Origin: Mycolicibacterium doricum
GTDB lineage: Bacteria; Actinomycetota; Actinomycetes; Mycobacteriales; Mycobacteriaceae
Direction of reading: 5' to 3'
NCBI RefSeq assembly: GCF_010728155.1
Contig: NZ_AP022605.1
Coordinates: forward strand, 1 to 64,000
Length of the DNA stretch: 64,000 nt
The position numbers were made by a program, and so were the translations under genes. Below are positions 1-18,729 of the stretch, one piece after another (position 1 is the first letter of the stretch; every line of letters starts with the position of its first letter). The notes under the pieces were generated by a model. It made no database searches. It was not told the DNA's origin and worked only from the letters and a program-made list of their open reading frames with translations.

Positions 1-263
1 TTGCGCTCACCAAGTCTCTTGCTCGCGAGATGGCCAGGCACGCTATCAATGTCAACTGTGTGTGCCCGGGGCCCACCGATACTCCGTTATTCCATGCCCA
101 GGCCGATAAGCTAAAAGATGCGTTGATCAAGGCGATTCCGTTTCGGCGGCTTGCGCGCCCAGAGGAGGTGGCTGCGCCCATTGTCTTCTTTGCCTCCGAG
201 GCCGCGTCGTTCATCACCGGTCAGGTGATCAGCGTCAGCGGCGGCCTGACGATGGCTGGGTGA
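1..263 (+). CDS. Short-chain dehydrogenase/reductase, C-terminal part (truncated by window edge)
   Basis: The gene is open at the left edge; about 86 codons remain. The visible part reads ALTKSLAREM, the helix that follows the YxxxK active site in FabG-like SDRs, then NCVCPGPTDTP, the PG segment that closes over the cofactor, and ends with FITGQVISVSGGLTMAG, the usual C-terminus of these NAD(P)-dependent oxidoreductases. The Rossmann glycine motif and catalytic Tyr/Lys lie outside the window, so cofactor and substrate cannot be judged. It converges on the minus-strand catabolic unit. An SDR is part of acyclic-terpene pathways (AtuB/AtuG), which would fit the neighbourhood, but that is inference from position only. 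Confidence 0.85.
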   Translation, partial: ALTKSLAREMARHAINVNCVCPGPTDTPLFHAQADKLKDALIKAIPFRRLARPEEVAAPIVFFASEAASFITGQVISVSGGLTMAG

Positions 264-286
264 ACGGCTCTACACCCTCAATTGCC

Positions 287-311
287 GCAACACATGCCGG
301 CGCAGTGTTGC
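287..311. terminator. Possible hairpin between convergent genes
   Basis: A 7-bp perfect inverted repeat, GCAACAC at 287-293 and GTGTTGC at 305-311 with an 11-nt loop, lies between the SDR stop and the stop of the AtuA-family gene. No T-run follows, as is common in mycobacteria. The stem is short, so this is only a candidate bidirectional terminator. Confidence 0.3.
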
Positions 312-411
312 CAACTGTGGTGGTGCGGCGGTAACGGGCGCCGAGACTTACAACACCAGCGGGTGGCCGGCCCACCGGCAGATCGGTCAAACGCCGGGTC
401 ACCGGCCCTGT

Positions 412-2145
412 TCAGCCCGCGCTGAGCAAGGATTGCGGGATGTCGACGATGCGAGAGCGCAGGTACTCGCCCAAGCCCTTCGCCTGGGGATCGGGCCGGG
501 TCGAGGATGCTACGCCCTCTCCCAACAGCCCGTGCACCACCACGTTGAGCGCACGCAGGTTGGGCAGCTCGAAGCGCTCTATGCGCAGCTGTGCAGCCTC
601 CGGGCCGAGCAGCCCGCGCAGCCGCTCGACGGTGAGGCACTCGCACGCCCAGGCGTAGCCGGCGTCGTCGCGGGCCCAGAGGCCGATGTTGGCGTTACCG
701 CCCTTGTCGCCGGACCGCGCGCCCAGCACCGCGCCCAGTGGCGCGCGGCACGTCGGCTCGGTCGGCGGCGCGGCGGCCGTGCTGCCCGTCACTTTCGCGG
801 CCGGCACGCTACCGGTCGGCGGATCGGCGATCGTCCGGCGCTCACCGTCGGGCAGCACCACGACCTGCGTCACGCTCGACCGGGGCACGGCCGCTGGGCG
901 GTACACGCCGAACGCCGACTCCGACGTGGGTGGCGTGGTGGTGTGGAAGCCCGCGTACCCGGCCAGAGCGATCTCCATGATTGCGCTCGAGAACGCCCGG
1001 CCGACCTTGCGCGGGTCGGTGTCCTTGACCGTGATCCGCAGGTGCGCGCACGCCTGATCGTTGGTGGGGGCGTCCGGTGTGTCGAACCGCAACAACCGGA
1101 CGTCCGTCTCGGCGAAGGAGTCCCGGCCGCCGAGGATGTCGAACAGTTGCTGCTGCGCGAACGCGGCCTTCGCCTCTATGTCCAAGCCGGTGAGCACCAT
1201 CGTCATGGTGTTCCGGTAGCCCCCGACCTCGTTCAGCGCCACCTTGAGCGTCTCCGGTGGCGGGCTGCCGGTGACACCCGTGATCGCCACCCGGTGCTCG
1301 GCCTGCTGGGCCAGAGAGATTGTGTCGAAGTGAGCGACCACGTCGGGCCCCAGATAGGCGGGCTCGGCGATCTCGTAGAGCAGCTGGGCGGTGACCGTAC
1401 CCACCGACACCAGCCCCCCGGTGTCGGCGTGCTTGGTGATCACTGACGAGCCGTCGGCCGCGACCTCCGCGATCGGGAAGCCTGGATAGCGCCGGTCGGT
1501 GATCTCGTCGAGGAAGGCGTAGTTGCCGCCGGTGGCCTGTGGTCCGCATTCGATGACGTGTCCGGCCACGACGGCACCGGCGAGCCGGTCCCAGTCGGTG
1601 CGCTCCCACCCGTGCCACCAGGCGGCCGGGCCGACGACCAGCGAGGCGTCTGTCACACGTCCGGTGACGACGACGTCGGCGCCCGCACCCAGCGCTTCGG
1701 CGATACCCCAGCCCCCGAGGTACGCGTTGGCCGAGACCGGCTTGACCTCACCGAGCGGAGGCGTGATCGCGGCGAGGTTCCCGCGCAGGTCGTCACCCTC
1801 GACGTGGGCGATCCGGACGGTGATACCGAGCCGGTCCGCAAGCTCGCGCAATTTGACGGCCAGCCCGGCGGGGTTGAGCCCACCGGCGTTGGCGACGATC
1901 TTGATACCGCGGTCGGAACAGGTGCCCAACACCTGCTCCATCTGGGTCAGGAACGTGCGCGCGTAGCCGCCCGCGGGATCCTTCGCCTGGGCCTTCGCCA
2001 GGATGAGCATCGTCAGCTCAGCGAGGTAGTCGCCGCAGAGCACGTCGATGCTCTCGCCCGCTCCGCCCTCGACCATCTCCCGCGCCGCGGCGATCCGGTC
2101 GCCGTAGAAGCCCGAGCAATTGCCGATGCGTACCGGGTCCCTCAC
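412..2145 (-). CDS. AtuA-family protein (acyclic terpene utilisation, DUF1446)
   Basis: A 577-residue protein beginning VRDPVRIGNCSGFYGDR. The N-terminal 430 residues match the AtuA/DUF1446 fold family (GNCSGFYGDR, CGDYLAELTM, VANAGGLNP, GRVTDASLVV). The last ~100 residues (LGAVLGARSGDKGGNANIGL onward) are the small domain fused to it in actinobacteria. The GTG start at 2145 follows GGAGGTG at 5-6 nt and overlaps the preceding gene's stop by 4 bp (GTGA); the longer in-frame reading has no ribosome site. AtuA is required for citronellol/geraniol growth in Pseudomonas but its biochemical role is not established. It is the last gene of unit A and supports a branched or isoprenoid acyl-CoA substrate for the island. 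Confidence 0.88.
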   Translation of the reverse strand: MRDPVRIGNCSGFYGDRIAAAREMVEGGAGESIDVLCGDYLAELTMLILAKAQAKDPAGGYARTFLTQMEQVLGTCSDRGIKIVANAGGLNPAGLAVKLRELADRLGITVRIAHVEGDDLRGNLAAITPPLGEVKPVSANAYLGGWGIAEALGAGADVVVTGRVTDASLVVGPAAWWHGWERTDWDRLAGAVVAGHVIECGPQATGGNYAFLDEITDRRYPGFPIAEVAADGSSVITKHADTGGLVSVGTVTAQLLYEIAEPAYLGPDVVAHFDTISLAQQAEHRVAITGVTGSPPPETLKVALNEVGGYRNTMTMVLTGLDIEAKAAFAQQQLFDILGGRDSFAETDVRLLRFDTPDAPTNDQACAHLRITVKDTDPRKVGRAFSSAIMEIALAGYAGFHTTTPPTSESAFGVYRPAAVPRSSVTQVVVLPDGERRTIADPPTGSVPAAKVTGSTAAAPPTEPTCRAPLGAVLGARSGDKGGNANIGLWARDDAGYAWACECLTVERLRGLLGPEAAQLRIERFELPNLRALNVVVHGLLGEGVASSTRPDPQAKGLGEYLRSRIVDIPQSLLSAG

Positions 2146-2954
2146 AAAACACCTCCGTCGAACTGTCCTGCGGTGCGCCCGCCACCGGGTGGTCCGGCGA
2201 AGGCCTGCGCGATGGAGAGCCACTGGTCGGCGAGCGGACCGGTGACTTGCAGCGCGGTGTCGTCGCGATGCCTGCGCTGGGTGACGAGCAGGCAGAAATC
2301 ATGCGCTGTGCCGGTGACCCGGTTGGGCACGCCGTCGGGGCCCCACGTCCATAGCGTGCCATCCGGTGCGGTGAGCTCGACGCGGACGGGCTCCTCGGGC
2401 ACCTGCAGGCCGTTGGCCAGGTAGCTGAACGCCCGCGCTCCCACGCCGATGTGCGCGACGTGGCGCAACCGGGCCGAGGGCACACGGGTCACTCCCAGCG
2501 CGTCGGCGACGTCCTGACCGTGCGCCCAGGTCTCCATGATCCGCGCGGTCAGCGAGGATGCCGCGCTCATGGGGAGGCCGAACCACGGCACCCGCACTGA
2601 GGGGTCGATCGTGGCGAAGGCAGCGACGAGGGCCCGGCGGGCGCGGTCGAACCAGGACAGCAGCTCGGCTCCCGGCATCGACCGGTAGCGCTCGGCGATG
2701 GTGTCCGGGGAAATCTGGCCGTCGGCCAGCATGGGCAGCATCTCGGCCGTGAACCCCTCGGGGTCGGTGGCTGACCGCACCGCGACGTCGTCGAAGAACG
2801 CAAGATGGCTGATCTGATCGCGGACCGCCCAGCCTGTCGCCGGGGTCGGAGCGTCCCACCCGGCCGGGCCGTCGGGCAGCTCGGCGATCAGCAACCTCAG
2901 CTCGGCCGTTTCCGCCTCGATATCGGTGATCAAGGACTCCATCGTCACGGCCAC
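2142..2954 (-). CDS. TIGR03084-type metal-binding protein (maleylpyruvate isomerase/DinB-like fold)
   Basis: About 270 residues. The N-terminal half has the four-helix DinB/mycothiol-dependent maleylpyruvate isomerase pattern with candidate metal ligands in QISHLAFFDD and ETWAHGQDVADAL (the HxxxD motif). The C-terminal half (ELTAPDGTLWTWGPDG, VTGTAHDFCLLVTQRR) is the SCP2-like extension usual in this family. The GTG at 2954 is chosen because GGAAGGG lies 9 nt upstream; an ATG at 2942 is the alternative. The gene overlaps AtuA by 4 bp and starts 2 bp after the crotonase stop, so the three are probably co-translated. The reaction is unknown; members often use mycothiol, which fits an actinobacterium. 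Confidence 0.82.
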   Translation of the reverse strand: MAVTMESLITDIEAETAELRLLIAELPDGPAGWDAPTPATGWAVRDQISHLAFFDDVAVRSATDPEGFTAEMLPMLADGQISPDTIAERYRSMPGAELLSWFDRARRALVAAFATIDPSVRVPWFGLPMSAASSLTARIMETWAHGQDVADALGVTRVPSARLRHVAHIGVGARAFSYLANGLQVPEEPVRVELTAPDGTLWTWGPDGVPNRVTGTAHDFCLLVTQRRHRDDTALQVTGPLADQWLSIAQAFAGPPGGGRTAGQFDGGVL

Positions 2955-2956
2955 GG

Positions 2957-3724
2957 CTAACGTCCCTTCCAGACCGGTGTGCGCTTCTCGCGGAAGGCAG
3001 CGGGACCCTCTTGCGCGTCCGCGCTGAGGTACACCGGCTCCCATATCTGGTCGGCGAGGTCGTAGGCCTCCGTCAGGGGGTGCTCTGCGGAGAGGTACAC
3101 CGTCTTCTTCGCCGCGAGTACGGACAGCGGTGCGTTGGAAGCGATCCGCAGGGCGATCTGCTGCGTTCGTGCCCGAAGCTCGGCTGCGGGCACGACCTCG
3201 TTCACCATGCCGACCTCGCGGGCGCGCTCGGCAGAGATCGGGTCGCCGGTCATCAAAATCTGCAGCGCAATCCGCGGCGGCAGCAGCCACGACAGCGGTG
3301 CAGCCCACGGCGAGCCGCGACCTACCTTGACCTCGCTGACCGCGAACGTGGCGTGCTCGGCCGCGACGACGAGGTCACACTGCTGGGCCAGCAGGAATCC
3401 GCCGGCGAAGGCGACGCCGTTCACCGCGGCAATAGTCGGCTTGACCACCTCGATGTTGCGCCCGAACTGCGGCGCGAAGTCTGGTGGCGGAACCGTGAGC
3501 GCGGTCTCCGCCATCTCTTTGAGGTCCCCGCCGGCGCAGAAGGCCTTGTCGCCGGCCCCGGTCAGCACCAGAACCTTGGCGGAGTCGTCGGCGTTGAAGC
3601 GGTGAACGGTGTCGAACAGTCCCTGCCGGACCGCCCCGTTGAGCGCGTTCCGCGCCTCGGGGCGATTGATCGTCAACCAGGCCACCCCGTCGACGACCTC
3701 GTAGGTGATCGCTTCCTCGCTCAT
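2957..3724 (-). CDS. Enoyl-CoA hydratase/isomerase (crotonase) family protein
   Basis: 255 residues from the ATG at 3724 (MSEEAITYEVV), preceded by GGACGGGG. Crotonase landmarks are present: WLTINRPEARNAL, the first oxyanion loop KAFCAGGDLKEM, and the second NGVAFAGGFLLAQQCD. The position equal to Glu144 of rat crotonase is Leu (GGFLLAQQ), while the Glu164 equivalent is kept (FAVSEVKVG). Loss of one acid/base suggests an isomerase, dehydratase or specialised hydratase (AtuE-like) rather than a standard enoyl-CoA hydratase. It lies in unit A between an acyl-CoA ligase and the TIGR03084 gene. A 190-bp gap to the ligase could hold a secondary promoter. Confidence 0.87.
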   Translation of the reverse strand: MSEEAITYEVVDGVAWLTINRPEARNALNGAVRQGLFDTVHRFNADDSAKVLVLTGAGDKAFCAGGDLKEMAETALTVPPPDFAPQFGRNIEVVKPTIAAVNGVAFAGGFLLAQQCDLVVAAEHATFAVSEVKVGRGSPWAAPLSWLLPPRIALQILMTGDPISAERAREVGMVNEVVPAAELRARTQQIALRIASNAPLSVLAAKKTVYLSAEHPLTEAYDLADQIWEPVYLSADAQEGPAAFREKRTPVWKGR

Positions 3725-3914: not shown

Positions 3915-5516
3915 TCAGCTCTCGAAGTGGCTGCGGTAGCGCTCGCGAAGCACGTTCTTCTGGATCTTGCCGGTGGCCGTGTGCGGCATGGCGTCGGTGA
4001 ACAGCACGGCTTTGGGTACCTTGAACCCCGACAGCCGGGTGCGGGCGGCGGCGATCAGGTCCCCTTCGGTCAGCACGACCCCCGGCTTCGGTGTCACGAT
4101 GGCGGTGATCGCCTCCGACCACCGCTGGTGGGGGAGCCCGATCACCGCCACCTCCTGGATTAGTGGCTCCACCTCGTAGAGTGCCTTCTCCACCTCGACG
4201 GACGCGACGTTTTCACCGCCGGACTTGATCACGTCCTTCTTGCGGTCAGCGAACCAGAGCAGCCCGTCACCGTCGAAACGCCCCACATCGCCGGAGTGGA
4301 ACCAGCCGTGCGCGAACGCCTCTGTCGTGGCCTCCGGGTCACGCAGATATCCCTCCATGGCGTGCGGGCCGCGGTAGACGATCTCGCCGGTCTCCCCGGT
4401 CGGCAGCAGGTGGCCGTCGTCGTCCATGATCCCGACCTGGACGTTGGGCACGGGCAGGCCGACCGACCCGGCGTGGCTGAGCTGGTACTCCGGTGGGAAC
4501 ACCGTGGTGAGCGGGCTCATTTCGGTCTGGCCGAAGCCCAACGCGAAGTCACAGCCGAACGCCTCGATTGCCCGGCGCAGGTCGGTGTCGGGCATCGGCG
4601 CCATCGCGTAGAGCGCCAGCCGCAGCGTGGACACATCGCGCTTGTCGATGTCGGGGTGGTCCATCAACGCGCGGTACATCATCGGCAGCCCGAAAATTTG
4701 AGTGATCCGCTCGGTCTCGATCGTTGCCAGCAGGGCGGCCGGGTCGAACGCCCGCATCAGTACCAGCGTGCCGCCCATGTAGAGCAGCCCGGTGGTGAAG
4801 CCGTTGAGCTGTGCGGTGTGGAACAGCGGCATCATCGCGACTGCGCGCTCGTCGCCGTTGATGCCGAGCACAAGTGGACCGTTCAGCGATTCGATGTAGA
4901 CAGCGACGTGGCTGCTCACCACCCCCTTCGGGGCCGATGTGGTACCGCTGGTGTAGAGGTAGCTGATCGGATCGCGGTCGCCCACCAGACACTCGGGCTC
5001 AGTGGTCGCGGCGCCGCCGACGAAGGAGGCGAGGTCCTGCCACCGGCCCGTCGCCCCCGGCTCCCACGAAGCGTCGGTGCCCGGTGCCACGATCACGTCG
5101 GTCACCGTGGCATTGCCGAGCCGCATCAGGGCTGCGGTGACAAGCTCGGCGAGCTGGCTCTCTACCACCACTCCGCGGGCCCGTGAATGCTCCAGGACAT
5201 AGCTCACCTCGCGAGGGCCCCAGGCCAGGTTGACCGGGACGCACACGACGCCGGTCTTGGCGCAGGCGAAGTAGGTGGTCAGGAACTCGACGCTGTTGCC
5301 GCTGGCCAAGGCCAGGACGTCGCCGCGCTGGTAACCCGCCGCGAGCAGCGCATGGGACAGGCGGTTGACTTCGTCGTTCAACGCGCGGTAGGTGAACCTG
5401 CGGGCGCCGTCGATGACGGCTTCGTGGTCCGGTCGGCGCCACGCCGCCCGGGTCAGCATGTCGCCGACATTGACCCGGGTGACGATGTTGGCGTCCAGGT
5501 CGTAATCCGTGGGCAC
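3915..5516 (-). CDS. Acyl-CoA synthetase (FadD-type, AMP-forming)
   Basis: An ANL-superfamily ligase of about 533 residues that activates a carboxylic acid to its CoA thioester through an acyl-adenylate. The P-loop is YLYTSGTTSAPKGVV; the A5-type motif is GFGQTEMSPL, the hinge/A8 region WFHSGDVGRFDGDGLLWFADRKKDVIKSGGENV, and the catalytic A10 Lys is in TATGKIQKNVL. The GTG at 5516 (VPTDYDLDANIV) has GAGAGG 6 nt upstream, better than the earlier GTG at 5549, which directly follows the DUF35 stop. It resembles AtuH-type ligases by context, following the thiolase/DUF35 pair in unit A. Chain specificity cannot be read from sequence. Confidence 0.93.
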   Translation of the reverse strand: MPTDYDLDANIVTRVNVGDMLTRAAWRRPDHEAVIDGARRFTYRALNDEVNRLSHALLAAGYQRGDVLALASGNSVEFLTTYFACAKTGVVCVPVNLAWGPREVSYVLEHSRARGVVVESQLAELVTAALMRLGNATVTDVIVAPGTDASWEPGATGRWQDLASFVGGAATTEPECLVGDRDPISYLYTSGTTSAPKGVVSSHVAVYIESLNGPLVLGINGDERAVAMMPLFHTAQLNGFTTGLLYMGGTLVLMRAFDPAALLATIETERITQIFGLPMMYRALMDHPDIDKRDVSTLRLALYAMAPMPDTDLRRAIEAFGCDFALGFGQTEMSPLTTVFPPEYQLSHAGSVGLPVPNVQVGIMDDDGHLLPTGETGEIVYRGPHAMEGYLRDPEATTEAFAHGWFHSGDVGRFDGDGLLWFADRKKDVIKSGGENVASVEVEKALYEVEPLIQEVAVIGLPHQRWSEAITAIVTPKPGVVLTEGDLIAAARTRLSGFKVPKAVLFTDAMPHTATGKIQKNVLRERYRSHFES

Positions 5517-5549
5517 GGCGGTCCTCTCGTCGGATCGGTTCAGGACCAC

Positions 5550-5975
5550 TCAGGCAGGGACGAATCGAACGATGCCGATGTCACCGACACGCTCGAACGC
5601 CGCGCGCACCGCCATCCCCGCCACCACTGTGGTGGGGTCGCAGTCCTCCACGGTGGAGAGCATCTGCGGGCCCTCGGCCAGGCGGACCACGACGACCGGG
5701 TAGGGCGCCGATCGGGGTAGGTCGTTCCACGGGGGACGGCTGACGAGCGCGGCGACGAGCACGGTCGCGTTGCCGGACAGTTCGGTCCACGTCAGCTCGG
5801 CGGAGTGGCAGCGGGGACAGAACGGGCGCGGGTAGTGGAACAGCAGCCCGCACGCGGTGCACTCGCGGACGGCGAGGCGGCCCCGGGCTGCGGCCTCGAA
5901 GTGGCCGCGGTTGACCTCGTCGATGCGGGGTAGTACCGCCGGATCGGCCAACCCCTCCAGGTAGGTAGCGGTCAC
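5550..5975 (-). CDS. DUF35 OB-fold/zinc-ribbon protein
   Basis: About 141 residues. The N-terminal helix (HFEAAARGRLAVREC) is followed by a rubredoxin-like zinc ribbon with CTACG and CPRCHS, then the OB-fold domain (TVLVAALVSRPPWNDLPRSAPYPVVVVRLAEG). The likely start is GTG 5975, with GGAG 8 nt upstream. DUF35 proteins pair with thiolase-fold enzymes: in steroid side-chain degradation the DUF35 domain of ChsH2 binds the aldolase Ltp2. Here the gene sits immediately after a Cys-less thiolase homologue, so a heteromeric complex is a reasonable inference. Between them is a 13-codon reading frame that overlaps both genes. Confidence 0.88.
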   Translation of the reverse strand: MTATYLEGLADPAVLPRIDEVNRGHFEAAARGRLAVRECTACGLLFHYPRPFCPRCHSAELTWTELSGNATVLVAALVSRPPWNDLPRSAPYPVVVVRLAEGPQMLSTVEDCDPTTVVAGMAVRAAFERVGDIGIVRFVPA

Positions 5976-6013
5976 GACGCCGTCTCCGCGAAGTTGGTTG
6001 TCTCGGTGGTCAT
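5972..6013 (-). other. 13-codon reading frame linking the thiolase and DUF35 genes
   Basis: An ATG at 6013 overlaps the thiolase stop (ATGA) and opens MTTETTNFAETAS; its stop overlaps the DUF35 GTG start (GTGA). It therefore bridges the gap by two 4-bp overlaps. It could be a coupling peptide that carries ribosomes from one gene to the next, or the original N-terminus of the DUF35 protein separated by a frameshift. No function is claimed. Confidence 0.4.
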
Positions 6014-7176
6014 GATCCCTCCAGGATGACGGTGACGTGGCTGCAGAGCATGGAACCGTAGGCGTGGACCACCCCGAGGTCGGCCTGCTCGACCTGGATG
6101 CCGGCGGCACGGCCGGTCATCTGCTGGTAAGCCTCCAGTATCCCGCAGATGCCCGAGGCCGTCCCGGAGTGGCCGAAACGCAGCAGCCCGCCGTTGGTGT
6201 TCACCGGCAGCCGCCCGCCGGGACGGGTGGCGCCCTCCCGGTAGAGCTCGACGGCTTTGCCGCGATCGGCGAGGCCGAGCTCCTCGAGCAGCATCAGCGG
6301 GTTGGAGCTGAACGCGTCGTAGAGCTGCGCGAGCTGGATGTCGGCGGGGGCAATGCCGGCCTGGGCGAAGGCGGTGGCGCCGGAGCGCACCGCGCCGGTG
6401 CGCGAGAGATCGGGCATCGAGGTGAGGAACCCGTGTGTATGGCCCTCCCCGATGCCGACCACGTGAACCGGTCGGTGCGGCAGGCTTGCGGCCCGATCCG
6501 GCGAGACGACGACGAAGGCGCCGCCACCCTCGCACGGAATGGAGCAGTCGAGGTAGCCGAACGGACCGGCGATGTGCCGCGCATCAAGCACCTGCTCGAC
6601 GGTGAACCTCCCGGCTCCGGCGCCGATGGCAGTCGGATGCGCCAACGCCCATTCCTGCTGGGCGACCACGGCCTCGGCGAACACCTCGCGGCTCTGCCCG
6701 ACGTCGTCGAGCCACGCCTGGGCGATCAACCCGTAGAGGGTCGGAATGGACGGCGCGTAGGGAAGCTCGTAATCCGGATGGCAGGTCATCGTCATCAGAC
6801 GCCTGCCGACGTCGCGGATCGGCGGGAATACCCCGGCCGACACGCACAGGACTGCCGAACACTGGCCGGACTGGATTGCCCGCGTCGCGACGCCGAGCAT
6901 GGCGAGGTGGCTCCCGCCGCCCAGCTGGACACCGAGTTGCAACCCGAGCTCGTGGAGCCCGAGAGAGTCCTGGATCTCCTCGGACAGGAACGTGTGCTCG
7001 ATGGACTCGCCCATCATCGAGCCCACGCAGATCAGGCCGTCGACGTCAGAGGCCTCCATCTCCGCATCGCCCAGGGCGGCGACGGCCGACTCGAGGTGCA
7101 GGTCCAGGAAGGGGCGGTCAAGACGGCCGGGGGTGACCTCCGAGAATCCGGCAAGCGTCGCGAGTGGTGCTGGCAT
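6010..7176 (-). CDS. Thiolase-fold protein lacking the nucleophilic Cys (Ltp2-like, candidate retro-aldolase)
   Basis: 388 residues with the thiolase superfamily fold (LDLHLESAVAALGDA; DVDGLICVG). Where thiolases have the acylated Cys near residue 89 this protein has Ser (QLGGGSHLAML, Ser89), and the GHP motif is GHSG (His336). A YDAF motif (Tyr286-Asp287) occupies the place of the catalytic His region. Ltp2, the steroid side-chain aldolase, is a thiolase homologue that uses tyrosines and partners a DUF35 domain; the adjoining DUF35 gene fits that model. A thiolytic role is unlikely. The ATG has no Shine-Dalgarno, and a TAACGT -10 ends 8 nt upstream, so the mRNA is probably leaderless. First gene of unit A. 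Confidence 0.85.
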   Translation of the reverse strand: MPAPLATLAGFSEVTPGRLDRPFLDLHLESAVAALGDAEMEASDVDGLICVGSMMGESIEHTFLSEEIQDSLGLHELGLQLGVQLGGGSHLAMLGVATRAIQSGQCSAVLCVSAGVFPPIRDVGRRLMTMTCHPDYELPYAPSIPTLYGLIAQAWLDDVGQSREVFAEAVVAQQEWALAHPTAIGAGAGRFTVEQVLDARHIAGPFGYLDCSIPCEGGGAFVVVSPDRAASLPHRPVHVVGIGEGHTHGFLTSMPDLSRTGAVRSGATAFAQAGIAPADIQLAQLYDAFSSNPLMLLEELGLADRGKAVELYREGATRPGGRLPVNTNGGLLRFGHSGTASGICGILEAYQQMTGRAAGIQVEQADLGVVHAYGSMLCSHVTVILEGS

Positions 7177-11313: not shown

Positions 11314-11361
11314 GTGAAGAAAGCAGTGAAGAAAGCAGTGAAGAAGGCAGTGCAGAAAGCT
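11314..11361. repeat. Four tandem 12-bp units between the ligase and dehydrogenase genes
   Basis: The unit GTGAAGAAAGCA occurs twice perfectly (11314-11337), then GTGAAGAAGGCA and GTGCAGAAAGCT. It ends at the first base of the acyl-CoA dehydrogenase stop codon region. Read on the plus strand it would encode VKKAVKKAVKKAVQKAQ within a 26-codon frame ending at 11394. It is purine-rich on one strand, unlike its surroundings. Function unknown. Confidence 0.85.
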
Positions 11362-12515
11362 CAGTACGATCGTGGCAGGTTCAGGCTGTGCTGAGCCACA
11401 TAGTTGAGGATCATCTCTCGGCTGATCGGCGCGGTGCGCATCAGCCGCACCGGGCCCCAGAGAGTGGCCAGCCCGTACTCGGTGGCCAACCCGTTGCCGC
11501 CGTGGGTCTGGATCGCCTGGTCGAGGGCCAGGATGCCGGCCTCGGCCGCAGCGTATTTGGCCATGTTCGACGCCTCAGCCGAACCCGGGTCGCCGGCGTC
11601 GTGCAGTGAGGCCGCCCGCTGGGTCATCAGCCGGGCCAGCTCCAGCTGGATCTTGGCGTGTGCCAGCGGGTGGGACAGGCCCTGGTGGGCTCCGATCGGC
11701 ACGTCCCAGACCTTGCGCTCGCGCGCGTAGGCAGACGCCTTGTCCAGCGCATAGCGACCGATGCCGTTGCCCAGGGCGGCGCCCATGATGCGTTCGGGGT
11801 TGAGGCCCATGAACACCTGACGCAAACCGTCGTTTTCCGCGCCGATCAGGTTCTCGGCCGGCACCCGCACGTCGTCGAAGAACAAAGTGAACTGCTTCTC
11901 CGGTGTCACCGCCTGCACCGGGATGAGGGTCTTGGTCAACCCGGGCGCGTCAGTCGGGACCACGAGCAGGCTCAGCCGTCCGCGGCCGCGGTCGTCTGTC
12001 GCGGTGCGGGTGACGACCAGGATGGCCTCCGCCTCGTCGACGCCGGAAATGTAGTACTTGGTGCCGTTGAGTATCCAATCCCCACCGACGCGCTTGGCGT
12101 GGGTGGAGATGTTGTGGGAGTTCGAGCCCGCATCCGGCTCGGTGATGGCGAACGACATGATGATCTCGCCGCTGGCGATGCCCGGCAGCCAGCGCGCCTT
12201 GAGCTCGTCGCTGCCGAAAGCCTGGATGATCGTGCCGCAGATGGTGGGGGAGACCACCGTCATCAGCAGCGGGCAGCCTGCCGCGGCCAGTTCCTCACCG
12301 ACGATCTGCATGTCGTAGATGCCGCCGCCGCCGCCGCCGTACTGCTCGGTGATGTTGACCCCGAGGAACCCCTGCTTGCCCACGGCCTGCCAGAGTTCCG
12401 AGCTCTTCTCCCCGCCGAGCGACTTGGCCACGTAGTAGTCGTGCCCGAAGTCCTTGGCGATCTCGGACACGGCCTTGCGAAGAGCTCGCCGTTCCTCGGT
12501 CTCGTGTAGTTCCAT
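11361..12515 (-). CDS. Acyl-CoA dehydrogenase (FadE-type)
   Basis: 384 residues, FAD-dependent alpha,beta-oxidation of an acyl-CoA. FAD/substrate motifs: FAITEPDAGSNSHNISTHAK (residues ~125-145), KYYISGVDEAEAILVV, and QTHGGNGLATEYGL in the C-terminal helical domain. A Glu in GLNPERIMGAALG occupies the place of the catalytic base of isovaleryl-CoA dehydrogenase (Glu254), which points to short branched or isoprenoid acyl-CoA substrates; the usual YEGT-type Glu is absent from the C-terminus (TAPISREMILNYV). AtuD-like in context: it follows the two carboxylase genes in unit B by 58 bp. Confidence 0.92.
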   Translation of the reverse strand: MELHETEERRALRKAVSEIAKDFGHDYYVAKSLGGEKSSELWQAVGKQGFLGVNITEQYGGGGGGIYDMQIVGEELAAAGCPLLMTVVSPTICGTIIQAFGSDELKARWLPGIASGEIIMSFAITEPDAGSNSHNISTHAKRVGGDWILNGTKYYISGVDEAEAILVVTRTATDDRGRGRLSLLVVPTDAPGLTKTLIPVQAVTPEKQFTLFFDDVRVPAENLIGAENDGLRQVFMGLNPERIMGAALGNGIGRYALDKASAYARERKVWDVPIGAHQGLSHPLAHAKIQLELARLMTQRAASLHDAGDPGSAEASNMAKYAAAEAGILALDQAIQTHGGNGLATEYGLATLWGPVRLMRTAPISREMILNYVAQHSLNLPRSY

Positions 12516-12573: not shown

Positions 12574-14595
12574 TCAATCCTGGTCTGCACCGTCGGCCGC
12601 TCCGACCACCGCGAGGGCATCGCCGGTGGACACCTGCTGACCCACCTCGACGGAAAGTTCGGCGACGATCCCGTCGATCGGGCTGGCGATGGTGTGTTCC
12701 ATCTTCATCGCTTCCACCACGACCAAGGCTTGCCCGGCCGTCACGACGTCGCCCGCGGCGACGGGCAGCCGGATCACCGAACCCGGCATGGGCGCCGTCA
12801 GGGAGCCCGCCGGTTTCAACGTGCTCGGGTCCAGGAACCGTGGCACCTGGGTGAATGCAGTGAACCCCGCAGGGCTGTCAACATAGGCCATGTCGCCGTC
12901 GAGGACGACGTCGTAGCCGCGCCGTACTCCGCCGGTCTCCAGGACCACCCGGTCCGGCCGCTGCACGAGCACCCTGACATCCTCGACGGGCTTGCCGTCG
13001 ACTTCCACCTCGACGCCGTCGCGGAGCAACCCATAGCCCACCCGACGCTCGCGGCCGTCGGCGCTCACCCATCCGGCGGACTGCAGCTGGGACGGGTTGT
13101 TGCGCCACCCGGCAGGCAGCGTCGGCTGGACGGAGGCCGCGGCGCGGCGCGCCGCGACCAGGGCGAATGTCGCCGCGATGGCGTGCATGCGCTCGCCGTC
13201 GCTGTCGATGAGGGGCCCACCGAGATCGGCCACGTCGTGGCGGTCGAGGAACCCGGTGTCGGTGCCGCGTCCGGCGAACTCGCCGTCGCGCAGGACGCGA
13301 ACCAGCAGATCCCGGTTGGTGGTGAGTCCGTGGATCCGGGCGCCGGCGAGCGCGGCGGACAGCGTGCCGAGCGCCTCGGCCCGGGTGGGCGCCCAGGCGA
13401 TCACCTTGGCCAGCATGGCGTCATAGTGGTGGCTGACCACCGAACCGTCGCGCACGCCGGAGTCCACCCGGACCCCGACGTGGTCGGGGATCTGCATCGT
13501 GCGCAGGGTCCCGGTCTGGGGCAGGTATCCCTTCGTGGGGTCCTCGGCGTAGAGCCGGGCCTCGACCGCGTGGCCGGTGATCCGCGGCTCGCTCACCTCG
13601 GCGGGCAGTGGCCGGCCCATCGCCACCAGCAACTGCAGGCGCACGAGGTCCAGCCCGGTGACGAGTTCGGTGACCGGGTGCTCGACCTGCAGCCGGGTGT
13701 TCATCTCCAGGAAGGCGAACGTCCCGTCGTTATCGCCGCCGTTCGCGTCGAGCACGAACTCGACGGTTCCGGCCCCGACGTAACCCACCGCCTGTGCCGC
13801 CGCGACCGCCGCCGCGCCCATCCGCGCGCGCAGGTCGTCGTCGACGACGGGGGAGGGCGCCTCCTCGATGACCTTCTGGTGGCGGCGCTGCACCGAGCAC
13901 TCCCGCTCGAACAGCGAGACGACCGTGCCGTGCATGTCGGCCATCACCTGGATCTCAACGTGGCGGGGGCGCTGCACGTACCGCTCGAGGAACACCGTGC
14001 CGTCGGAGAACGCCGACATCGCCTCGCGCGAGGCCGAGGCCACGGCCTCGTCGAGGTCGTCGGCCGACTCGACAACGCGCATGCCGCGCCCGCCGCCACC
14101 CGCGCTCGCCTTGACCAGCAGGGGGTAGCCGATCTCGGCGCCGAGCTTGCGCAGCTTCTCGGGGTTCAGGCCGGTGGCGTCGCCGCCCGGGAGGACCGGC
14201 ACCCCCGCATCGGCCATCATCGCCTTGGCCGTCAGCTTGGAGCCCATCGCGTCGATGGCGTCCGGCGGCGGGCCGACGAACACGAGCCCGGCGTCGGCGC
14301 AGGCCCGCGCGAAGCCGGCGTTCTCGGACATGAAGCCGTAGCCGGGATGCACGGCGTCGGCGCCGGTGAGAAGGGCGGCGGCGATCACCCGGTCACCGTC
14401 GAGGTAGGTCTCCGCCGGCGAGGAACCCGGCAGCCGGACGGCCTCGTCGGCGTCGTCGACGTGCCAGGCGTCGGCGTCGGCGTCGGAGTACACGGCGACG
14501 GTGGCGATGCCGAGTTCGCGACAGGTGCGAAACACGCGCCGGGCGATCTCTCCCCGGTTGGCCACCAGCAGCTTGTTGATCACGGGCACCGCCAT
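12574..14595 (-). CDS. Biotin-dependent acyl-CoA carboxylase alpha chain (BC-BT-BCCP)
   Basis: About 673 residues. The N-terminal biotin carboxylase has INKLLVANRGEIARRVFRT, the ATP-grasp glycine loop KASAGGGGRGMR, FLERYVQRPRHVEIQ and FLEMNTRLQVEHPVTE. A BT-type linker follows and the C-terminal BCCP carries the biotin site VVEAMKMEHTI, with Lys near residue 631. The start is ATG 14595 or GTG 14598, both overlapping the beta-chain stop, so the chains are co-translated. Architecture equals geranyl-CoA, methylcrotonyl-CoA and mycobacterial AccA1-type enzymes; context with AtuA favours a 3-methyl-enoyl substrate, but sequence alone does not fix specificity. Confidence 0.94.
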   Translation of the reverse strand: MAVPVINKLLVANRGEIARRVFRTCRELGIATVAVYSDADADAWHVDDADEAVRLPGSSPAETYLDGDRVIAAALLTGADAVHPGYGFMSENAGFARACADAGLVFVGPPPDAIDAMGSKLTAKAMMADAGVPVLPGGDATGLNPEKLRKLGAEIGYPLLVKASAGGGGRGMRVVESADDLDEAVASASREAMSAFSDGTVFLERYVQRPRHVEIQVMADMHGTVVSLFERECSVQRRHQKVIEEAPSPVVDDDLRARMGAAAVAAAQAVGYVGAGTVEFVLDANGGDNDGTFAFLEMNTRLQVEHPVTELVTGLDLVRLQLLVAMGRPLPAEVSEPRITGHAVEARLYAEDPTKGYLPQTGTLRTMQIPDHVGVRVDSGVRDGSVVSHHYDAMLAKVIAWAPTRAEALGTLSAALAGARIHGLTTNRDLLVRVLRDGEFAGRGTDTGFLDRHDVADLGGPLIDSDGERMHAIAATFALVAARRAAASVQPTLPAGWRNNPSQLQSAGWVSADGRERRVGYGLLRDGVEVEVDGKPVEDVRVLVQRPDRVVLETGGVRRGYDVVLDGDMAYVDSPAGFTAFTQVPRFLDPSTLKPAGSLTAPMPGSVIRLPVAAGDVVTAGQALVVVEAMKMEHTIASPIDGIVAELSVEVGQQVSTGDALAVVGAADGADQD

Positions 14596-16196
14596 CACAT
14601 CCGGAACACGCCGTAGCCACGTTGGCCACGGACCTCGTTGTTGTGCACCACGGACAGGCAGAACCCCAGAACGGTACGGGTGTCGCGTGGGTCGATGATC
14701 CCGTCGTCGTAGAGCCTGCCGCTATTGGCCAGCGCCAACGACTCACGCTCGATCTGGTTCTCGACGGCAGCGCGCATCTGGGCGTCGGCCTCCTCGTCGA
14801 ACGGAAGGCCCCGGTCGGCGGCCGACTCCCGGGCCACGATCGACAGCACGCCCGCGAGCTGGGCCGGGCCCATGACGGCCGAACGCGAGTTGGGCCAGGT
14901 GAACAGGAAGCGGGGAGAGTAGGACCGCCCGCACATCCCGTAGTTGCCCGCACCGTAGGACGCGCCCATCACGATCGTCAGGTGCGGGACGGTGCTGTTG
15001 GAGACGGCGTTGATCATCTTCGCGCCGTCCTTGATGATGCCGCCCTGCTCGTACTCCGCACCGACCATGTAGCCGGTGGTGTTCTGCAGGAACAGCAGTG
15101 GCGTGTCGATCTGGTTCGCCAGCTGGATGAACTGGGCGGCCTTCTCCGCCTCCTCGCTGAACAGGATTCCGCGCGCGTTGGCCAGGATCCCTACCGGATA
15201 TCCGTGGATCGAGGCCCAACCGGTGACCAGCGAGGTGCCGTAGAGCGGCTTGAACTCGTCGAAGGCCGATCCGTCCACGATGCGGGCGATGACGTCGCGT
15301 GGGTCGAAGGGAACCTTGGGGTCCACCGAGGCGATCCCGAGGAGCTGGTCGGGGTCTCGCAGCGGGGGGGTCGGTGACTGTGTCGGGCCCGGCCCCAGCT
15401 TGCGCCAGTTCAGTCTCGCCATGATCCGCCGCCCGATCCGGATGGCGTCCTGCTCGTCCTCGGCCATGTAGTCGGCCAGCCCGGAGGTGCGGGCATGCAT
15501 GTCGGCGCCGCCGAGCGACTCGTCGTCGGATACTTCGCCGGTGGCCATCTTCACCAGCGGCGGACCGCCGAGGAACACCTTGGACCGGTTACGGACCATC
15601 ACCACGTAATCACACATTCCGGGGATGTACGCGCCGCCTGCCGTCGAGTTACCGAACACCAGTGCGAGTGTCGGCAGGCCCAGCGCGCTGTGCTGGGTGA
15701 GATCGTGGAACAGCTGGCCGCCGGGCACGAAGATCTCGGCCTGCGTGGGTAGGTCAGCCCCGCCCGACTCGACGACGTTGATGATGGGCAGCCGGTTCTC
15801 ACGGGCGACCGCCATGCCCCGGAACACCTTGCGGAAGGTGTAGGGGTTCGAGGCTCCGCCGCGCACCGTCGGGTCGTGCGCGATGATCATCGACTCGACG
15901 CCTTCGACGATGCCGATGCCGACCACAACGCTGCCGCCCACGGGGAACTTCGTGCCCCACGCCGCGAACGGACACAGTTCCAGGAAGGCGGTGTCGGGGT
16001 CGAGCAGCAGCTCGACGCGCTCGCGGGCCAGCATCTTTCCGCGCTTACGGTGCCGGGCGACGTACTTCTCGCCGCCGCCCGCGTTGGCCAGCGCCAGCTG
16101 TTCGGCGATCGTGTCGAGCTGCGCGATGAGTCCCTCGCGATTCTCGAGGTATACCGGTGCACGGGTGTCGACCCGGTCGGGCAGGACGTCAACCAA
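14595..16196 (-). CDS. Acyl-CoA carboxylase carboxyltransferase beta chain (AtuC/LiuB/AccD1 type)
   Basis: 533 residues with two crotonase-like carboxyltransferase halves: N-half oxyanion loop FGNSTAGGAYIPGMCDY with VFLGGPPLVKMATGE, C-half FLQNTTGYMVGAEYEQGGI and MGASYGAGNYGMCGR. These are typical of 3-methylcrotonyl-/geranyl-CoA carboxylases. The TTG at 16196 (LVDVLPDRVD) has a strong GGAGG 5 nt upstream. It heads unit B under the promoter at 16238-16255. It would accept CO2 from carboxybiotin and carboxylate the gamma-methyl of a 3-methyl-2-enoyl-CoA; whether the chain is C5 (leucine) or longer (terpenoid) needs structural comparison. Confidence 0.93.
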   Translation of the reverse strand: MVDVLPDRVDTRAPVYLENREGLIAQLDTIAEQLALANAGGGEKYVARHRKRGKMLARERVELLLDPDTAFLELCPFAAWGTKFPVGGSVVVGIGIVEGVESMIIAHDPTVRGGASNPYTFRKVFRGMAVARENRLPIINVVESGGADLPTQAEIFVPGGQLFHDLTQHSALGLPTLALVFGNSTAGGAYIPGMCDYVVMVRNRSKVFLGGPPLVKMATGEVSDDESLGGADMHARTSGLADYMAEDEQDAIRIGRRIMARLNWRKLGPGPTQSPTPPLRDPDQLLGIASVDPKVPFDPRDVIARIVDGSAFDEFKPLYGTSLVTGWASIHGYPVGILANARGILFSEEAEKAAQFIQLANQIDTPLLFLQNTTGYMVGAEYEQGGIIKDGAKMINAVSNSTVPHLTIVMGASYGAGNYGMCGRSYSPRFLFTWPNSRSAVMGPAQLAGVLSIVARESAADRGLPFDEEADAQMRAAVENQIERESLALANSGRLYDDGIIDPRDTRTVLGFCLSVVHNNEVRGQRGYGVFRM

Positions 16197-16237
16197 CTTT
16201 TCCTCCAGGTGACATCGACGTCGATCGCTGACACGTT

Positions 16238-16402: not shown

Positions 16403-17182
16403 TCACCTTGCGCCGAAAGTCGGGGCGCGTCGCTCGGTGAAGGCGCCGAAACCTTCACGGCCGTCCGGAGTGGCGAAGAGGTCCGCCACCGCGTCGCGCT
16501 CGTGTTCGACACCGTCGGACGTCGACACGTTGGCCGTCCGCAGCAGCAGGGACTTGGTCGTCGACGCGACTTGGGCTGCGCCAGTGGCCAGCTGCTCTCC
16601 GATGGCGCCTGCCGTCTCGAGCAGCGTGCCGGCGCCGCTAAGCCGATTCACCAGCCCCAGGCTGTGGGCCCGCTCGCCGTCGATGACGGTACCCAGCATC
16701 AGCATCTCGGTGGCCACCCCGACGGGGATGAGCCGTGGCAACCGCTGCGTACCACCCCCGCCAGGGAGCACGCCGAGTTTGGCCTCGGGCAGACCGAGCC
16801 GGGCCTCGGGTGTGGCGACCCTCAGGTCGCATGCCATTGCGAGTTCGAGCCCTCCGCCCAACGCACTGCCGTGGATGGCGGCGATCACCGGAAGCGGGCT
16901 GGCGACGAGGACGTCGAGGGCGTCGGTGAAGCCATGGAGGAAGTCAGCGAAATCGTCGCGGCTACCGAAGGCCTGGATCTCTTCGATGTCGGCGCCCGCG
17001 CAGAACGCCCGGCCGGCCCCGTGTATGACCACCGCACGCACTGATCTCTGCGACTCCAGGGTGCGCAGGGCGTCGGCGAGATCGGTGTAGGTCTGGGTGC
17101 CGATGGCGTTGAGCCGGTCGGCGCCATCGAGTTCAACCCAGGCGACCGCGTCCGCGACGCGGGTGGCGATCCTGGTGGCCAC
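16403..17182 (-). CDS. Enoyl-CoA hydratase with both catalytic glutamates
   Basis: 259 residues. Oxyanion segments HGAGRAFCAGADIEEI and HGSALGGGLELAMACD are present. Both crotonase acid/base residues are kept: Glu in GGGLELAMACD and, twenty residues on, Glu in LGLPEAKLG, followed by GVLPGGGGTQRLPRL. It should therefore be a true syn-hydratase of 2-enoyl-CoA. The GTG at 17182 is 3 bp after the stop of the preceding crotonase gene, so translation is probably coupled. Last gene of unit C; 206 bp separate it from the carboxylase start. Confidence 0.92.
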   Translation of the reverse strand: MATRIATRVADAVAWVELDGADRLNAIGTQTYTDLADALRTLESQRSVRAVVIHGAGRAFCAGADIEEIQAFGSRDDFADFLHGFTDALDVLVASPLPVIAAIHGSALGGGLELAMACDLRVATPEARLGLPEAKLGVLPGGGGTQRLPRLIPVGVATEMLMLGTVIDGERAHSLGLVNRLSGAGTLLETAGAIGEQLATGAAQVASTTKSLLLRTANVSTSDGVEHERDAVADLFATPDGREGFGAFTERRAPTFGAR

Positions 17183-17185
17183 GGG

Positions 17186-17998
17186 TCACTCAGCCGTGAT
17201 CGCGCCCGGGGTGGTGAAATCGGGCGCACGCTTCTCGCGGTGCGCGGCGAGGCCTTCCCGGACCTCCGGACCGCCGAAGCCGATGAACTCCAACCCGAGG
17301 GACGTCTCGAATGACGGCCCGAACACCCGGAACCACTGGTTGAGGCTGTGTTTGGTCCAGCGGATCGCCGTCGGTGCGCCGGCGGCCAGGCTGGTCGCGA
17401 TGCGGCTCGCCTCGGTCAGGACGTCGTCGTCGTCGACGCACTTGGACACCAGGCCGATGCGTTCGGCTTCCTCGCCGAGCAACGTCTCGCAGGTAAGCAG
17501 GTAGTACTTGGCCTTGGCCATACCCGCCATCAACGGCCAGCAGATGGCGGCGTGGTCACCGGCGGCGACCCCGAGACGGGTGTGGCCGTCGATGATCTTG
17601 GCGGTGCGCCCGACGACGGAGATGTCGGCCAGGATCGCGACGACCAGACCGGCGCCCACCGCGGGCCCGCGGACCGCGGAAATCACCGGCTTGCTGAAGC
17701 TCACCATATTCATCACCAGGTCGCGTGCCTCGCGCATGATTCGGACCCGGCTGGGGTAGCTGTTGATCATGTCGTCGAGCAGGTCGAAGTTGCCGCCCGA
17801 CGAGAACGCCTTCCCTTCGCCGCGGACCAGCACGGCGCGGACGGTGTCGTCCTTGTCGATCGCGGGCCACATGTCGGCGAGGTCGCGGTGCATCTGGGGA
17901 TTGACGGAGTTCAATCCGGGGGCGTCCAGCACGATGTGGAGAACACCGTCAGCGGCTGGTTCGAAGCGCAGACTGGGAAAGTCGTCGTAGCTCATCAT
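17186..17998 (-). CDS. Crotonase-family protein without the hydratase glutamates
   Basis: 270 residues from ATG 17998 ([12 protein letters not shown]), with AAAGGA 8 nt upstream. The crotonase fold is clear: [29 protein letters not shown], and [18 protein letters not shown]. At the Glu144 position it has Val (GAGLVVAIL), and the PE of the second glutamate is replaced by GHTRLG, followed by [13 protein letters not shown] with an Asp-His pair. This subgroup is common in actinobacteria; the chemistry may be hydrolysis, isomerisation or dehalogenation-like rather than hydration. Middle gene of unit C. Confidence 0.87.
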
Positions 17999-18225
17999 CG
18001 AGTGTTCCTTTGCATCGTCAAGAAGGGCTACTCCGCGTCGGTGGGATGTAGCGGCCACGGACGAGGACTGCGAGGCTTCTCTCATCGCGCCCTCGAAATG
18101 GTAACGAACCTTCCGACCGGCCGTGGTCGGATCACGGTGCGGCGGCCTCAGCGCTGATTGCGGTTCATGATTGGGTTCCTCCAACGCCGCGGTTCGGTAG
18201 CAGAGAGTGTGCGGTGGAGGCGGTC

Positions 18226-18729
18226 TCAGTTGTCGGCCTCGACGAAGTCAGCGCCGCGGATCAGCCGAACCGGAGTGAACACCAGGACCTCTTCGTCGCG
18301 CTGGTTGCGGACGCTGACCGTCGCGGTGACGACGCCCCGACCCGGCTTGCTCGACGGCCGCGACTCCGTGACAGTGCAGATGGCGAGGAGGGTGTCACCG
18401 ACGTACACCGGTCGCTTGACCCACAGTTCCATGTGCATGAAGGCCAGGCCGGTGCCGTTGAGGAAGTTGGACTGCACGATCAACCCCTCTGCAATGCAGT
18501 AGATCAGAGCGCCGGGGACCAACCGACCTTGGTACCCGCCGGCGGCGGCGTGCGACGCGTCGTAGAACAACGGCTCGTTGAACCCGCCGAGGTTGACGAA
18601 CGTCGTAAGGTCGGATTCAGTAACGGTGCGCTTGGCGGTCTTGAAGCGAAAACCTGGCGTCATTTCTTCCCAAGTCCTGCCGCGAACCAGTGGTTCCACC
18701 TCGGAGCTGGACAGGTGGGCTGAGTTCAT
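18226..18729 (-). CDS. MaoC-like hot-dog acyl-CoA hydratase
   Basis: 167 residues from ATG 18729 ([14 protein letters not shown]), with AAAGG 8 nt upstream. A single hot-dog domain: [39 protein letters not shown], then [16 protein letters not shown] in the hydration-site region, and the strands [24 protein letters not shown]. This is the MaoC/R-specific enoyl-CoA hydratase or mesaconyl-CoA hydratase type. It is the first gene of unit C, divergent from a ligase gene across about 400 bp of repeat-rich DNA; 227 bp separate it from the next gene of the unit. Confidence 0.85.

Follow-up and report, generated by a model that had tools for sequence, protein, structure and literature searches.

We have analyzed a window of 64,000 nucleotides that forms the start of the single-contig, 4.03-Mb genome of Mycolicibacterium doricum (NZ_AP022605.1, positions 1 to 64,000), and describe here a catabolic gene island with 16 minus-strand genes between 412 and 18729. 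We put at about even chances that this is a horizontally transferred island degrading a beta-branched carboxylic acid, probably isoprenoid or alicyclic, by way of two linked modules, one with a biotin-dependent carboxylase and the other with ThlB, a thiolase-fold protein without the nucleophilic Cys. The evidence lies in the pocket segment of the carboxyltransferase (CT), in the residues and clade of ThlB, in the joint occurrence of both genes across the genus and in the DNA identity between the island and its copy in M. hippocampi. The genes follow in order.

412..2145, minus: AtuA-family protein with AtuA and AtuA_ferredoxin domains (Pfam PF07287, 6.4e-159; GTG start)
2142..2954, minus: TIGR03084-family (mycothiol-type) metal-binding protein, overlapping AtuA (TIGR03084, 352.7 bits, cut-off 247.95; MDMPI_N)
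2957..3724, minus: crotonase ECH1 (ECH_1, 2.2e-54)
3915..5549, minus: acyl-CoA ligase A (AMP-binding, 3.8e-87)
5550..5975, minus: standalone DUF35 protein, zinc ribbon plus OB (PF01796, PF12172; C-x2-C-x10-C-x2-C ribbon)
6010..7176, minus: ThlB, thiolase fold without nucleophilic Cys, Gly/YDAF/His set (Thiolase_C_1, 2.4e-49)
7286..7723, minus: MaoC1, hot-dog hydratase half with D-x4-H (MaoC, 2e-05, below Pfam's cut-off)
7720..8280, minus: MaoC2, hot-dog partner without D-x4-H (FAS1_DH_region, 4.9e-07)
8396..9559, minus: ThlA, Cys-bearing SCP2-type thiolase (Thiolase_N, 4e-21; C/HDAA/H residues)
9628..11184, minus: acyl-CoA ligase B (AMP-binding, 2.7e-94)
11361..12515, minus: acyl-CoA dehydrogenase, ACAD (PF00441/02771/02770)
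12574..14598, minus: biotin carboxylase (BC) plus biotin carboxyl carrier protein (BCCP) subunit (CPSase_L_D2, 2.6e-72; Biotin_carb_C; Biotin_lipoyl)
14595..16196, minus: CT with a substrate segment of the geranyl-CoA carboxylase (GCC) type, AccD2-type clade (Carboxyl_trans, 1.4e-134)
16403..17182, minus: crotonase ECH2 (ECH_1, 1.7e-55)
17186..17998, minus: crotonase ECH3 (ECH_1, 1e-39; PRK07327 above cut-off)
18226..18729, minus: MaoC3, hot-dog protein without D-x4-H (FAS1_DH_region, 9.7e-10)

Overlaps of a few bases join TIGR03084 to AtuA, MaoC2 to MaoC1 and CT to BC. Profile matches recovered within 1..18729 every gene class named in the original prediction, a note made beforehand from the sequence of these positions. 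It had counted two hot-dog genes where there are three (MaoC1, MaoC2 and MaoC3), and it had overlooked both ThlA and the TIGR03084 gene, as well as the horizontal transfer and the nearby Baeyer-Villiger genes. Among the three hot-dog genes MaoC1 alone keeps D-x4-H, which we take to be the hydratase motif of this fold. The best match of AtuA in the PDB reached only E 0.45.

The carboxyltransferase, its pocket and its relatives

The pocket comparison given by Jurado and colleagues (PMC4673880, in the part of that paper used here) has Phe191 preceded by a three-residue insertion in the beta subunit of 3-methylcrotonyl-CoA carboxylase (MCC), and Gly162 with no insertion in that of GCC; we took this Gly162 as chain position 161 of PaGCC, position 162 there being Ala. 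Both the Phe and the insertion are absent from the window CT, which carries Gly at the GCC position. Its segment AEIFVPGGQLF aligns with AEIFVEGARGF of PaGCC, the MCC segment being FPDREHFGRIF. We have surveyed this segment in 47 rows (38 of 80 loci, the window, five paralogues of the same genome and three plasmid loci), with that of L156 judged from the alignment, its row being unread by the text pattern. The MCC insertion was absent in 42 rows, namely the window, the AccD2-type copy of the same genome (L149), all 38 loci, L154 and L155; at the pocket position these have Gly in 37 cases, Ala in 5 and Phe in none.

In a tree of 33 CT rows, the island protein, the AccD2-type protein and 22 others formed one clade of 24 with support 93/100, the bootstrap being just under 95. 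The GCC clade held only PaGCC and L156 (100/99), and both this clade and that of MCC (99/99) stood apart. An AtuA homologue was found in the stretches examined for 20 of the 24 rows. To judge from segment and tree, the window CT is a third lineage beside GCC and MCC, with a predicted pocket of the GCC type. The Atu-type carboxylation foreseen originally is thus upheld in the pocket signature and not in the clade, the CT lying outside that of AtuC, and the comparison with geranyl- and methylcrotonyl-CoA carboxylases that had been suggested gave a GCC-type pocket and not that of a plain leucine MCC.

Two further loci of the same genome are relevant here. The AccD1-type copy (L150) carries the MCC segment and is accompanied by BC, ACAD, MaoC, a CitE-like lyase and an E1 dehydrogenase; with this gene content, as expected for leucine, it is by all appearances a separate leucine-type locus. 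A second AtuA-CT-BC-ACAD-ECH locus (L084:9445-16860, C1:3.07 Mb) adjoins a sensor kinase/response regulator pair and an mscL-like gene, and we take it to be of the accD2-accA2 (Rv0971c-Rv0976c) type. The island CT is only 66% identical to this AccD2-type copy and in the tree is nearer to Acidimicrobiaceae and Nocardioides sequences. The role and substrate of the mycobacterial AccD2-AccA2 are called an open question in a passage of PMC4347857, and the GCC pocket signature together with the AtuA linkage in this clade suggest larger 3-methyl-2-enoyl-CoA esters as AccD2-type substrates to try. A contig binned as Acidobacteria (L004) holds a CT of 97% identity; it is probably a mis-binned mycobacterial contig.

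ThlB, the DUF35 protein and ThlA

The best PDB matches of ThlB were 4u4e, CtSal (9myr) and Ltp2 (6ok1). The part of PMC12329534 dealing with catalysis names Tyr302 and Cys304 of a YDCY motif in CtSal, with Gln347 and Gln352 nearby, and Tyr294 of YDHF and Tyr344 in Ltp2. At the corresponding places ThlB has YDAF, Leu for Gln347 and His for Gln352/Tyr344, with Gly for the thiolase Cys; the Tyr common to Sal and Ltp2 is kept. Cys, HDA- and His are found in the thiolases of our residue table, among them ThlA (L132_92 was omitted, having stops in the strand used, and L094, being a short row, does not reveal the motif). Among the best 120 of 227 matches to ThlB, which reach down to about 35% identity, the Gly/YDAF/His set was found in 114 and the Cys in none. 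Where the source names them, the matches listed are called acetyl-CoA acetyltransferase or thiolase.

In the ThlB tree, from which L094 and rows over 430 residues (L092, L100, L114) were omitted, the ThlB, Ltp2 and Sal clades were separate and each supported at 100/100, while the fork that joins Sal to the ThlB group was weakly supported (85/90). The window protein stands with a Pseudonocardia protein, in a different subclade from that of M. chubuense NBB4. Having neither motif and a clade of its own, ThlB is excluded as a true Ltp2 or Sal, and the "Ltp2-like" label of the original prediction has to be dropped. Other mycobacteria examined hold separate Ltp2-type and Sal-type proteins (L099, L096, L105).

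Because the Tyr common to Sal and Ltp2 is kept, our best guess is that ThlB would be a C-C lyase acting by a retro-aldol reaction, with the DUF35 protein as its predicted partner; the acid would be the His, in the role that Sal gives to its Cys and Ltp2 to a second Tyr. A mycobacterial precedent is Atf1/ChsH4, described in a section of PMC10398937, where a Cys-less aldolase of the thiolase fold is paired with a DUF35 protein that stands alone. ThlA retains the nucleophilic Cys (ENACASS) and the His of GHP, so that ordinary thiolysis should be available to the island; in the tree it groups with the archaeal thiolase 7yvy and BbsB.

A fusion of the ThlB and DUF35 genes as a sign of a complex was rejected. 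In IS-1742 (L120:4867-6495) the longer ThlB frame reads into DUF35, and a one-base insertion, the sole indel against an intact relative, alters the conserved ThlB C-terminus; this looks like frameshift decay. The ThlB match likewise stops at residue 356 inside a longer frame in G228, G035, G113 and G195, all from the genus sample, and this recurrence suggests decay of the island there.

Linkage and transfer of the two modules

We have searched 248 genomes of the genus for both genes, at thresholds of at least 92% identity for CT and at least 54% for ThlB. CT was present in 32 and a close ThlB in 22. All 22 also had CT, on the same contig in 21 of them and at a distance of 8.6-28 kb (Fisher's test 4e-24, with genomes treated as independent though related). 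Nine of the ten CT genomes without a close ThlB have AtuA (95-97%) on the CT contig, 17.5-20.3 kb away. The Rhodococcus plasmid pRB98 carries CT-BC-ECH-TIGR03084-AtuA-ACAD-ligase, none of the 22 features of that stretch being a thiolase, and the trio ECH1, TIGR03084 and AtuA recurs both there and on the NBB4 plasmid. From the other side, MaoC1 (at least 78%) was found in 25 genomes, all with a ThlB homologue; in four of them this was only of about 45% and there was no CT match at the threshold. One of these four (G243) holds MaoC2, a 32% AtuA homologue, ACAD and a ligase together without CT. In a wider sample of the order, with 397 genomes, ThlB at E 1e-75 appeared only in three, all of the same genus. 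Since CT occurs without ThlB and ThlB without CT, a single pathway is not required. The fusion of both chemistries claimed in the original prediction is therefore right in that the gene sets co-occur far beyond expectation, with relatedness left in the count, and too strong in that each module is also found alone. ACAD was 81-99% identical in the mycobacterial arrangements compared and occurs in lineages with and without the carboxylase. This pattern points to two modules sharing one ACAD and probably a beta-branched substrate, not to one fixed sequence of reactions.

The closest copy is in M. hippocampi. Over 1-26136 the DNA of both species is 92-96% identical (aligned blocks of at least 400 bases), dropping to 79-80% at 26.4-28.1 kb and to 74-77% from 28.9 kb on, with 86-87% at ilvD. 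Two core proteins are 78% identical to those of M. hippocampi, against 92-99% for its intact island proteins. Because the identity of the island lies so far above that of the flanking DNA and the core proteins, we infer that it moved horizontally between mycobacteria. In M. hippocampi 13 of the 16 genes are in the same order. Ligase A is reduced there to two short remnants (L116:17275-17652), ECH2 is in two pieces (L003:9155-9831) and ThlA, whose best match elsewhere in that genome is 39%, is replaced by genes that we read by eye as transposase-like (L003:16520-19000). Ligase A (88%) and ThlA (93%) are in place in the set of another genome (G103), and ligase A is found at 77-78% in ENV421 and G189. 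To the right of the island M. hippocampi has a repeated block of ligase, alcohol dehydrogenase (ADH) and small protein near P450 genes (L157:6597-9831, 14234-17259). Further along the window, a DDE transposase gene (35156-36673) lies in a segment (34976-37023) with no match in the compared stretches of M. hippocampi and IS-1742, which align with the window to its left and right.

A second lineage has much of the gene set, rearranged and without ThlA. IS-1742 shares 93-94% identity with the window genome in two core proteins, yet its island belongs to this other lineage (67-80% DNA identity); its AtuA frame is cut short (L011). In M. chubuense NBB4 the second lineage is found on the 615-kb plasmid pMYCCH.01, between MYCCH_RS28240 and RS28420 and beside a CYP153 system; ThlA is absent from this plasmid. 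Across this second lineage, identities to the window are 92% for CT, 82-84% for AtuA, 79-84% for ECH1, 79% for MaoC1 and 72-73% for MaoC2, and only about 55% for ThlB and 50% for DUF35. The ThlB-DUF35 pair may have been recruited twice or swapped, which, if true, would strengthen the functional link. A third arrangement (L166) has a MaoC1/2-ThlB set between two genes with the same first residues (3-314, 19117-19998), one of which matches a DDE transposase. This variant of the island includes MaoC2, ACAD, a ligase and an AtuA homologue but no carboxylase, and its layout resembles a composite transposon.

Substrate, proposed pathway and alternatives

The island extends past 18729 to about 26.1 kb, with a ligase, a Baeyer-Villiger-type monooxygenase (BVMO), a luciferase-like oxidoreductase, a second ACAD and a carboxylesterase. 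On its other side lies the end of a short-chain dehydrogenase/reductase (SDR).

3..263, plus: SDR, 3' end only, start beyond the contig end (adh_short_C2, 1.2e-24)
19133..20686, plus: acyl-CoA ligase C (AMP-binding, 5.4e-86; 95% in M. hippocampi)
20824..22296, plus: Baeyer-Villiger-type flavin monooxygenase (FMO-like, 8.2e-17; 96% in M. hippocampi)
22360..23295, plus: luciferase-like monooxygenase (Bac_luciferase, 9.2e-50)
23307..24533, minus: second acyl-CoA dehydrogenase, ACAD2 (Acyl-CoA_dh_1, 1.7e-37)
24587..26119, minus: carboxylesterase, final gene of the high-identity segment (COesterase, 6.9e-92)

The luciferase-like gene is nearest to the F420-dependent Rv2161c subfamily, just under the threshold (TIGR03619, 165.8 bits, cut-off 166.9), and the nearest model of ACAD2 is cyclohexanecarboxyl-CoA dehydrogenase, below the cut-off (TIGR03207, 406.8 bits against 575). 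The SDR remnant is 98% identical over 86 residues to a 263-residue SDR frame of M. hippocampi (L116:12989-13780). It lacks its 5' part at the contig start, and the gene at the other end (L083) runs off on the opposite strand. A simple joining of the contig ends would not yield a single gene, and sequence may be missing there. Related catabolic genes found at the far contig end (L083, L085) would be neighbours of the window in a circular contig only. One of the proteins there, of 307 residues (L085:10638-11561), has no Pfam or NCBIfam match; in M. hippocampi, and likewise in several further arrangements, relatives of 86-89% identity adjoin BVMO genes, and a partial second copy at the contig end (L083:19433-19999) is 82-83% identical to these relatives.

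As for the substrate, BVMO genes are found near CT in M. hippocampi and in other arrangements examined, and in some a block of an SDR, an unknown gene, two BVMO genes and an ACAD is divergent from CT-BC-ACAD-LigB. A CYP153 gene with ferredoxin and reductase lies beside the island in NBB4 and in the M. chlorophenolicum group, a P450 of like N-terminal sequence is found in G078, and the NBB4 stretch that holds the island also has P450, hydrolase, ADH and ligase genes. Mce-type genes are recognised by sequence in L085 and annotated beside the related Rhodococcus operon. Comparisons of the BVMO proteins match cyclohexanone, phenylacetone and steroid enzymes alike. With these neighbours, a branched or cyclic isoprenoid hydrocarbon would fit best as the substrate. 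Two routes are open, an acyclic one (hydration, retro-aldol cleavage, methyl ketone, BVMO, esterase) and an alicyclic one. Bacterial breakdown of phytol may pass through a methyl ketone. To judge by titles and the openings of abstracts, no account of this island was found in the open-licence literature, whether on the gene set itself or on menthol and Baeyer-Villiger clusters, isoprenoid methyl-ketone routes and phytol ketones, in agreement with the original statement that no described mycobacterial pathway with this exact set was known.

In the pathway that we propose, the first module would comprise ligase B, ACAD, BC and CT, ECH1, AtuA and TIGR03084. The acid would be activated and then desaturated to a 3-alkyl-2-enoyl-CoA, whose gamma carbon would be carboxylated by a CT with a pocket expected to take more than 3-methylcrotonyl-CoA; the product would then be hydrated and cleaved, and AtuA and TIGR03084 would act in later steps. 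The second module would use the same ACAD with MaoC1/MaoC2, DUF35, ThlB and perhaps ligase A and ThlA. Here the enoyl-CoA would be hydrated to a 3-hydroxyacyl-CoA, and ThlB-DUF35 would break its C2-C3 bond by retro-aldol cleavage into acetyl-CoA and a ketone or aldehyde, Tyr286 of YDAF serving as base and the retained thiolase His, His336, as acid. A ketone product could be processed further by the BVMO and the esterase. A bolder proposal, which we make tentatively and regard as possible and not as probable, is that the ThlB group, with its Gly/Tyr-Asp-Ala-Phe/His set, forms one more catalytic class among the thiolase-fold C-C lyases. Its members would work together with DUF35 and MaoC1/2 on beta-branched acyl-CoA other than that of steroids, giving a carboxylation-free bypass of methyl branches beside the Atu-type route. 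A 3-methyl-2-enoyl-CoA would first be hydrated, retro-aldol cleavage would release acetyl-CoA and a methyl ketone, and the ketone would undergo Baeyer-Villiger oxidation to an ester that is then hydrolysed; bypass and carboxylation would then be two answers to one chemical block. If this class is real, a set of annotated thiolases would be reassigned to C-C lyases.

Several observations weigh against the two-module pathway. In overall PDB score the CT reaches 543 bits with MCC and 477 bits with GCC, and is thus nearer to the former. The match of MaoC1 to its family is, as listed, under the Pfam cut-off. According to the passage on mutants in PMC12329534, CtSal activity is lost when its Cys is changed to Ala, and ThlB has Ala there, so that its activity is not assured. 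The linkage count is of genomes and not of independent events, 18 of the 22 with ThlB and CT being one lineage; AtuA reached the threshold used in only 17 of these 22, 10 of the 32 genomes with CT yielded no close ThlB, and five genomes without a CT match at the threshold have a ThlB homologue of 40-45%. The CYP153 homologue of the window genome (84%) is located elsewhere and not adjacent to the island. In M. hippocampi either ThlA, ligase A and ECH2 would be dispensable or the island would be decaying. All substrates, the order of reactions, ThlB activity, the role of AtuA and the membership of ligase A and ThlA are inferred.

Among the alternatives, the most credible one, still a minority view, is that the substrate is a cyclic terpenoid or alicyclic ketone, with Baeyer-Villiger ring opening yielding a 3-alkyl-branched acid for the carboxylase module and ThlB acting on a second ring or chain fragment. 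The divergent block with two BVMO genes, the P450, hydrolase, ADH and ligase of NBB4 and the below-cut-off resemblance of ACAD2 to cyclohexanecarboxyl-CoA dehydrogenase agree with it, as does the ring opening of menthol to dimethyl-oxo-octyl-CoA proposed for Thauera in a section of PMC4097962; the substrates of a BVMO, however, are not readable from sequence. The two modules could also be one linear pathway, in which ThlB-DUF35 replaces an enzyme of the 3-hydroxy-3-methylglutaryl-CoA (HMG-CoA) lyase type and cleaves the tertiary 3-hydroxy-3-alkylglutaryl-CoA formed by CT/BC and hydration. As we understand it, Ltp2 also cleaves a tertiary 3-hydroxyacyl-CoA; its C17 hydroxyl is named in a passage of PMC12329534. 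No HMG-CoA lyase or HpcH/CitE lyase was found among the 23 open reading frames scanned in the window (3 to 27530), the flanks being only partly scanned; the lyase step of the Atu pathway is filled by LiuE, which belongs to a separate liu set in Pseudomonas (PMC4097962, section on this pathway). CT was present in every genome with a close ThlB, but the CT genomes without it, nine of them with AtuA on the CT contig, the thiolase-free Rhodococcus plasmid stretch with CT and AtuA and the ThlB arrangement with MaoC1/2, ACAD and an AtuA homologue but no CT make a linear pathway unlikely.

We consider it very improbable that this is a steroid or hopanoid side-chain island with the carboxylase as an unrelated passenger: hydratase, DUF35 and thiolase-fold enzyme do resemble the igr and Sal sets, and there are Mce-type genes in L085 and near the Rhodococcus operon, but ThlB lies outside the Ltp2 and Sal clades with neither motif, no ring-degrading genes were recognised among the window genes scanned, and other mycobacteria have Ltp2-type and Sal-type proteins besides. 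Plain leucine or isovalerate catabolism with the other genes unlinked, for which the best PDB score of the CT (MCC-beta) would speak, is hardly tenable. The MCC Phe and insertion are missing, the CT clade is apart from that of MCC and a separate MCC-type locus exists, which rules out a plain leucine carboxylase; the linkage of CT and ThlB also stands against it.

With the two-module pathway as the preferred reading, the island can be compared with known systems. It shares with the Pseudomonas Atu pathway (AtuA-H, AtuC/F) the AtuA family, an ACAD, a crotonase, a ligase and the gamma-carboxylase segment with Gly for the MCC Phe and no insertion. It differs in the clade of the CT, which is not that of PaGCC, in having no LiuE-type lyase in the window reading frames scanned and in the additional TIGR03084, MaoC, DUF35 and ThlB. 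The mycobacterial AccA2-AccD2 locus has a CT of the same clade and the same AtuA-CT-BC-ACAD-ECH set, from which the island copy is set apart by the 66% identity and the Acidimicrobiaceae/Nocardioides affinity given above. Ltp2-ChsH1-ChsH2 (igr) has in common the Cys-less thiolase fold, the adjacent DUF35 and MaoC pair and the catalytic Tyr; ThlB has YDAF and His where Ltp2 has YDHF and Tyr, its clade is separate and the DUF35 of the island is not fused to MaoC. Sal/Shy and Atf1/ChsH4 share the Cys-less fold with a Tyr base, and DUF35 is standalone as in ChsH4, whereas ThlB has Ala and His in place of the Cys and Gln of Sal, again in a separate clade, and the zinc ribbon of the island DUF35 is C4 and not C3H1. 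Finally, the CYP153 alkane-hydroxylase cluster of M. chubuense NBB4 (pMYCCH.01) is directly adjoined by the island of the second lineage; a review of NBB4 regulators, in its part on this cluster, treats the CYP153 system and its regulators and not the adjoining catabolic genes. The island would provide an explicit gene set, plasmid-borne in this one strain, for the breakdown of branched hydrocarbons or terpenoids in mycobacteria.

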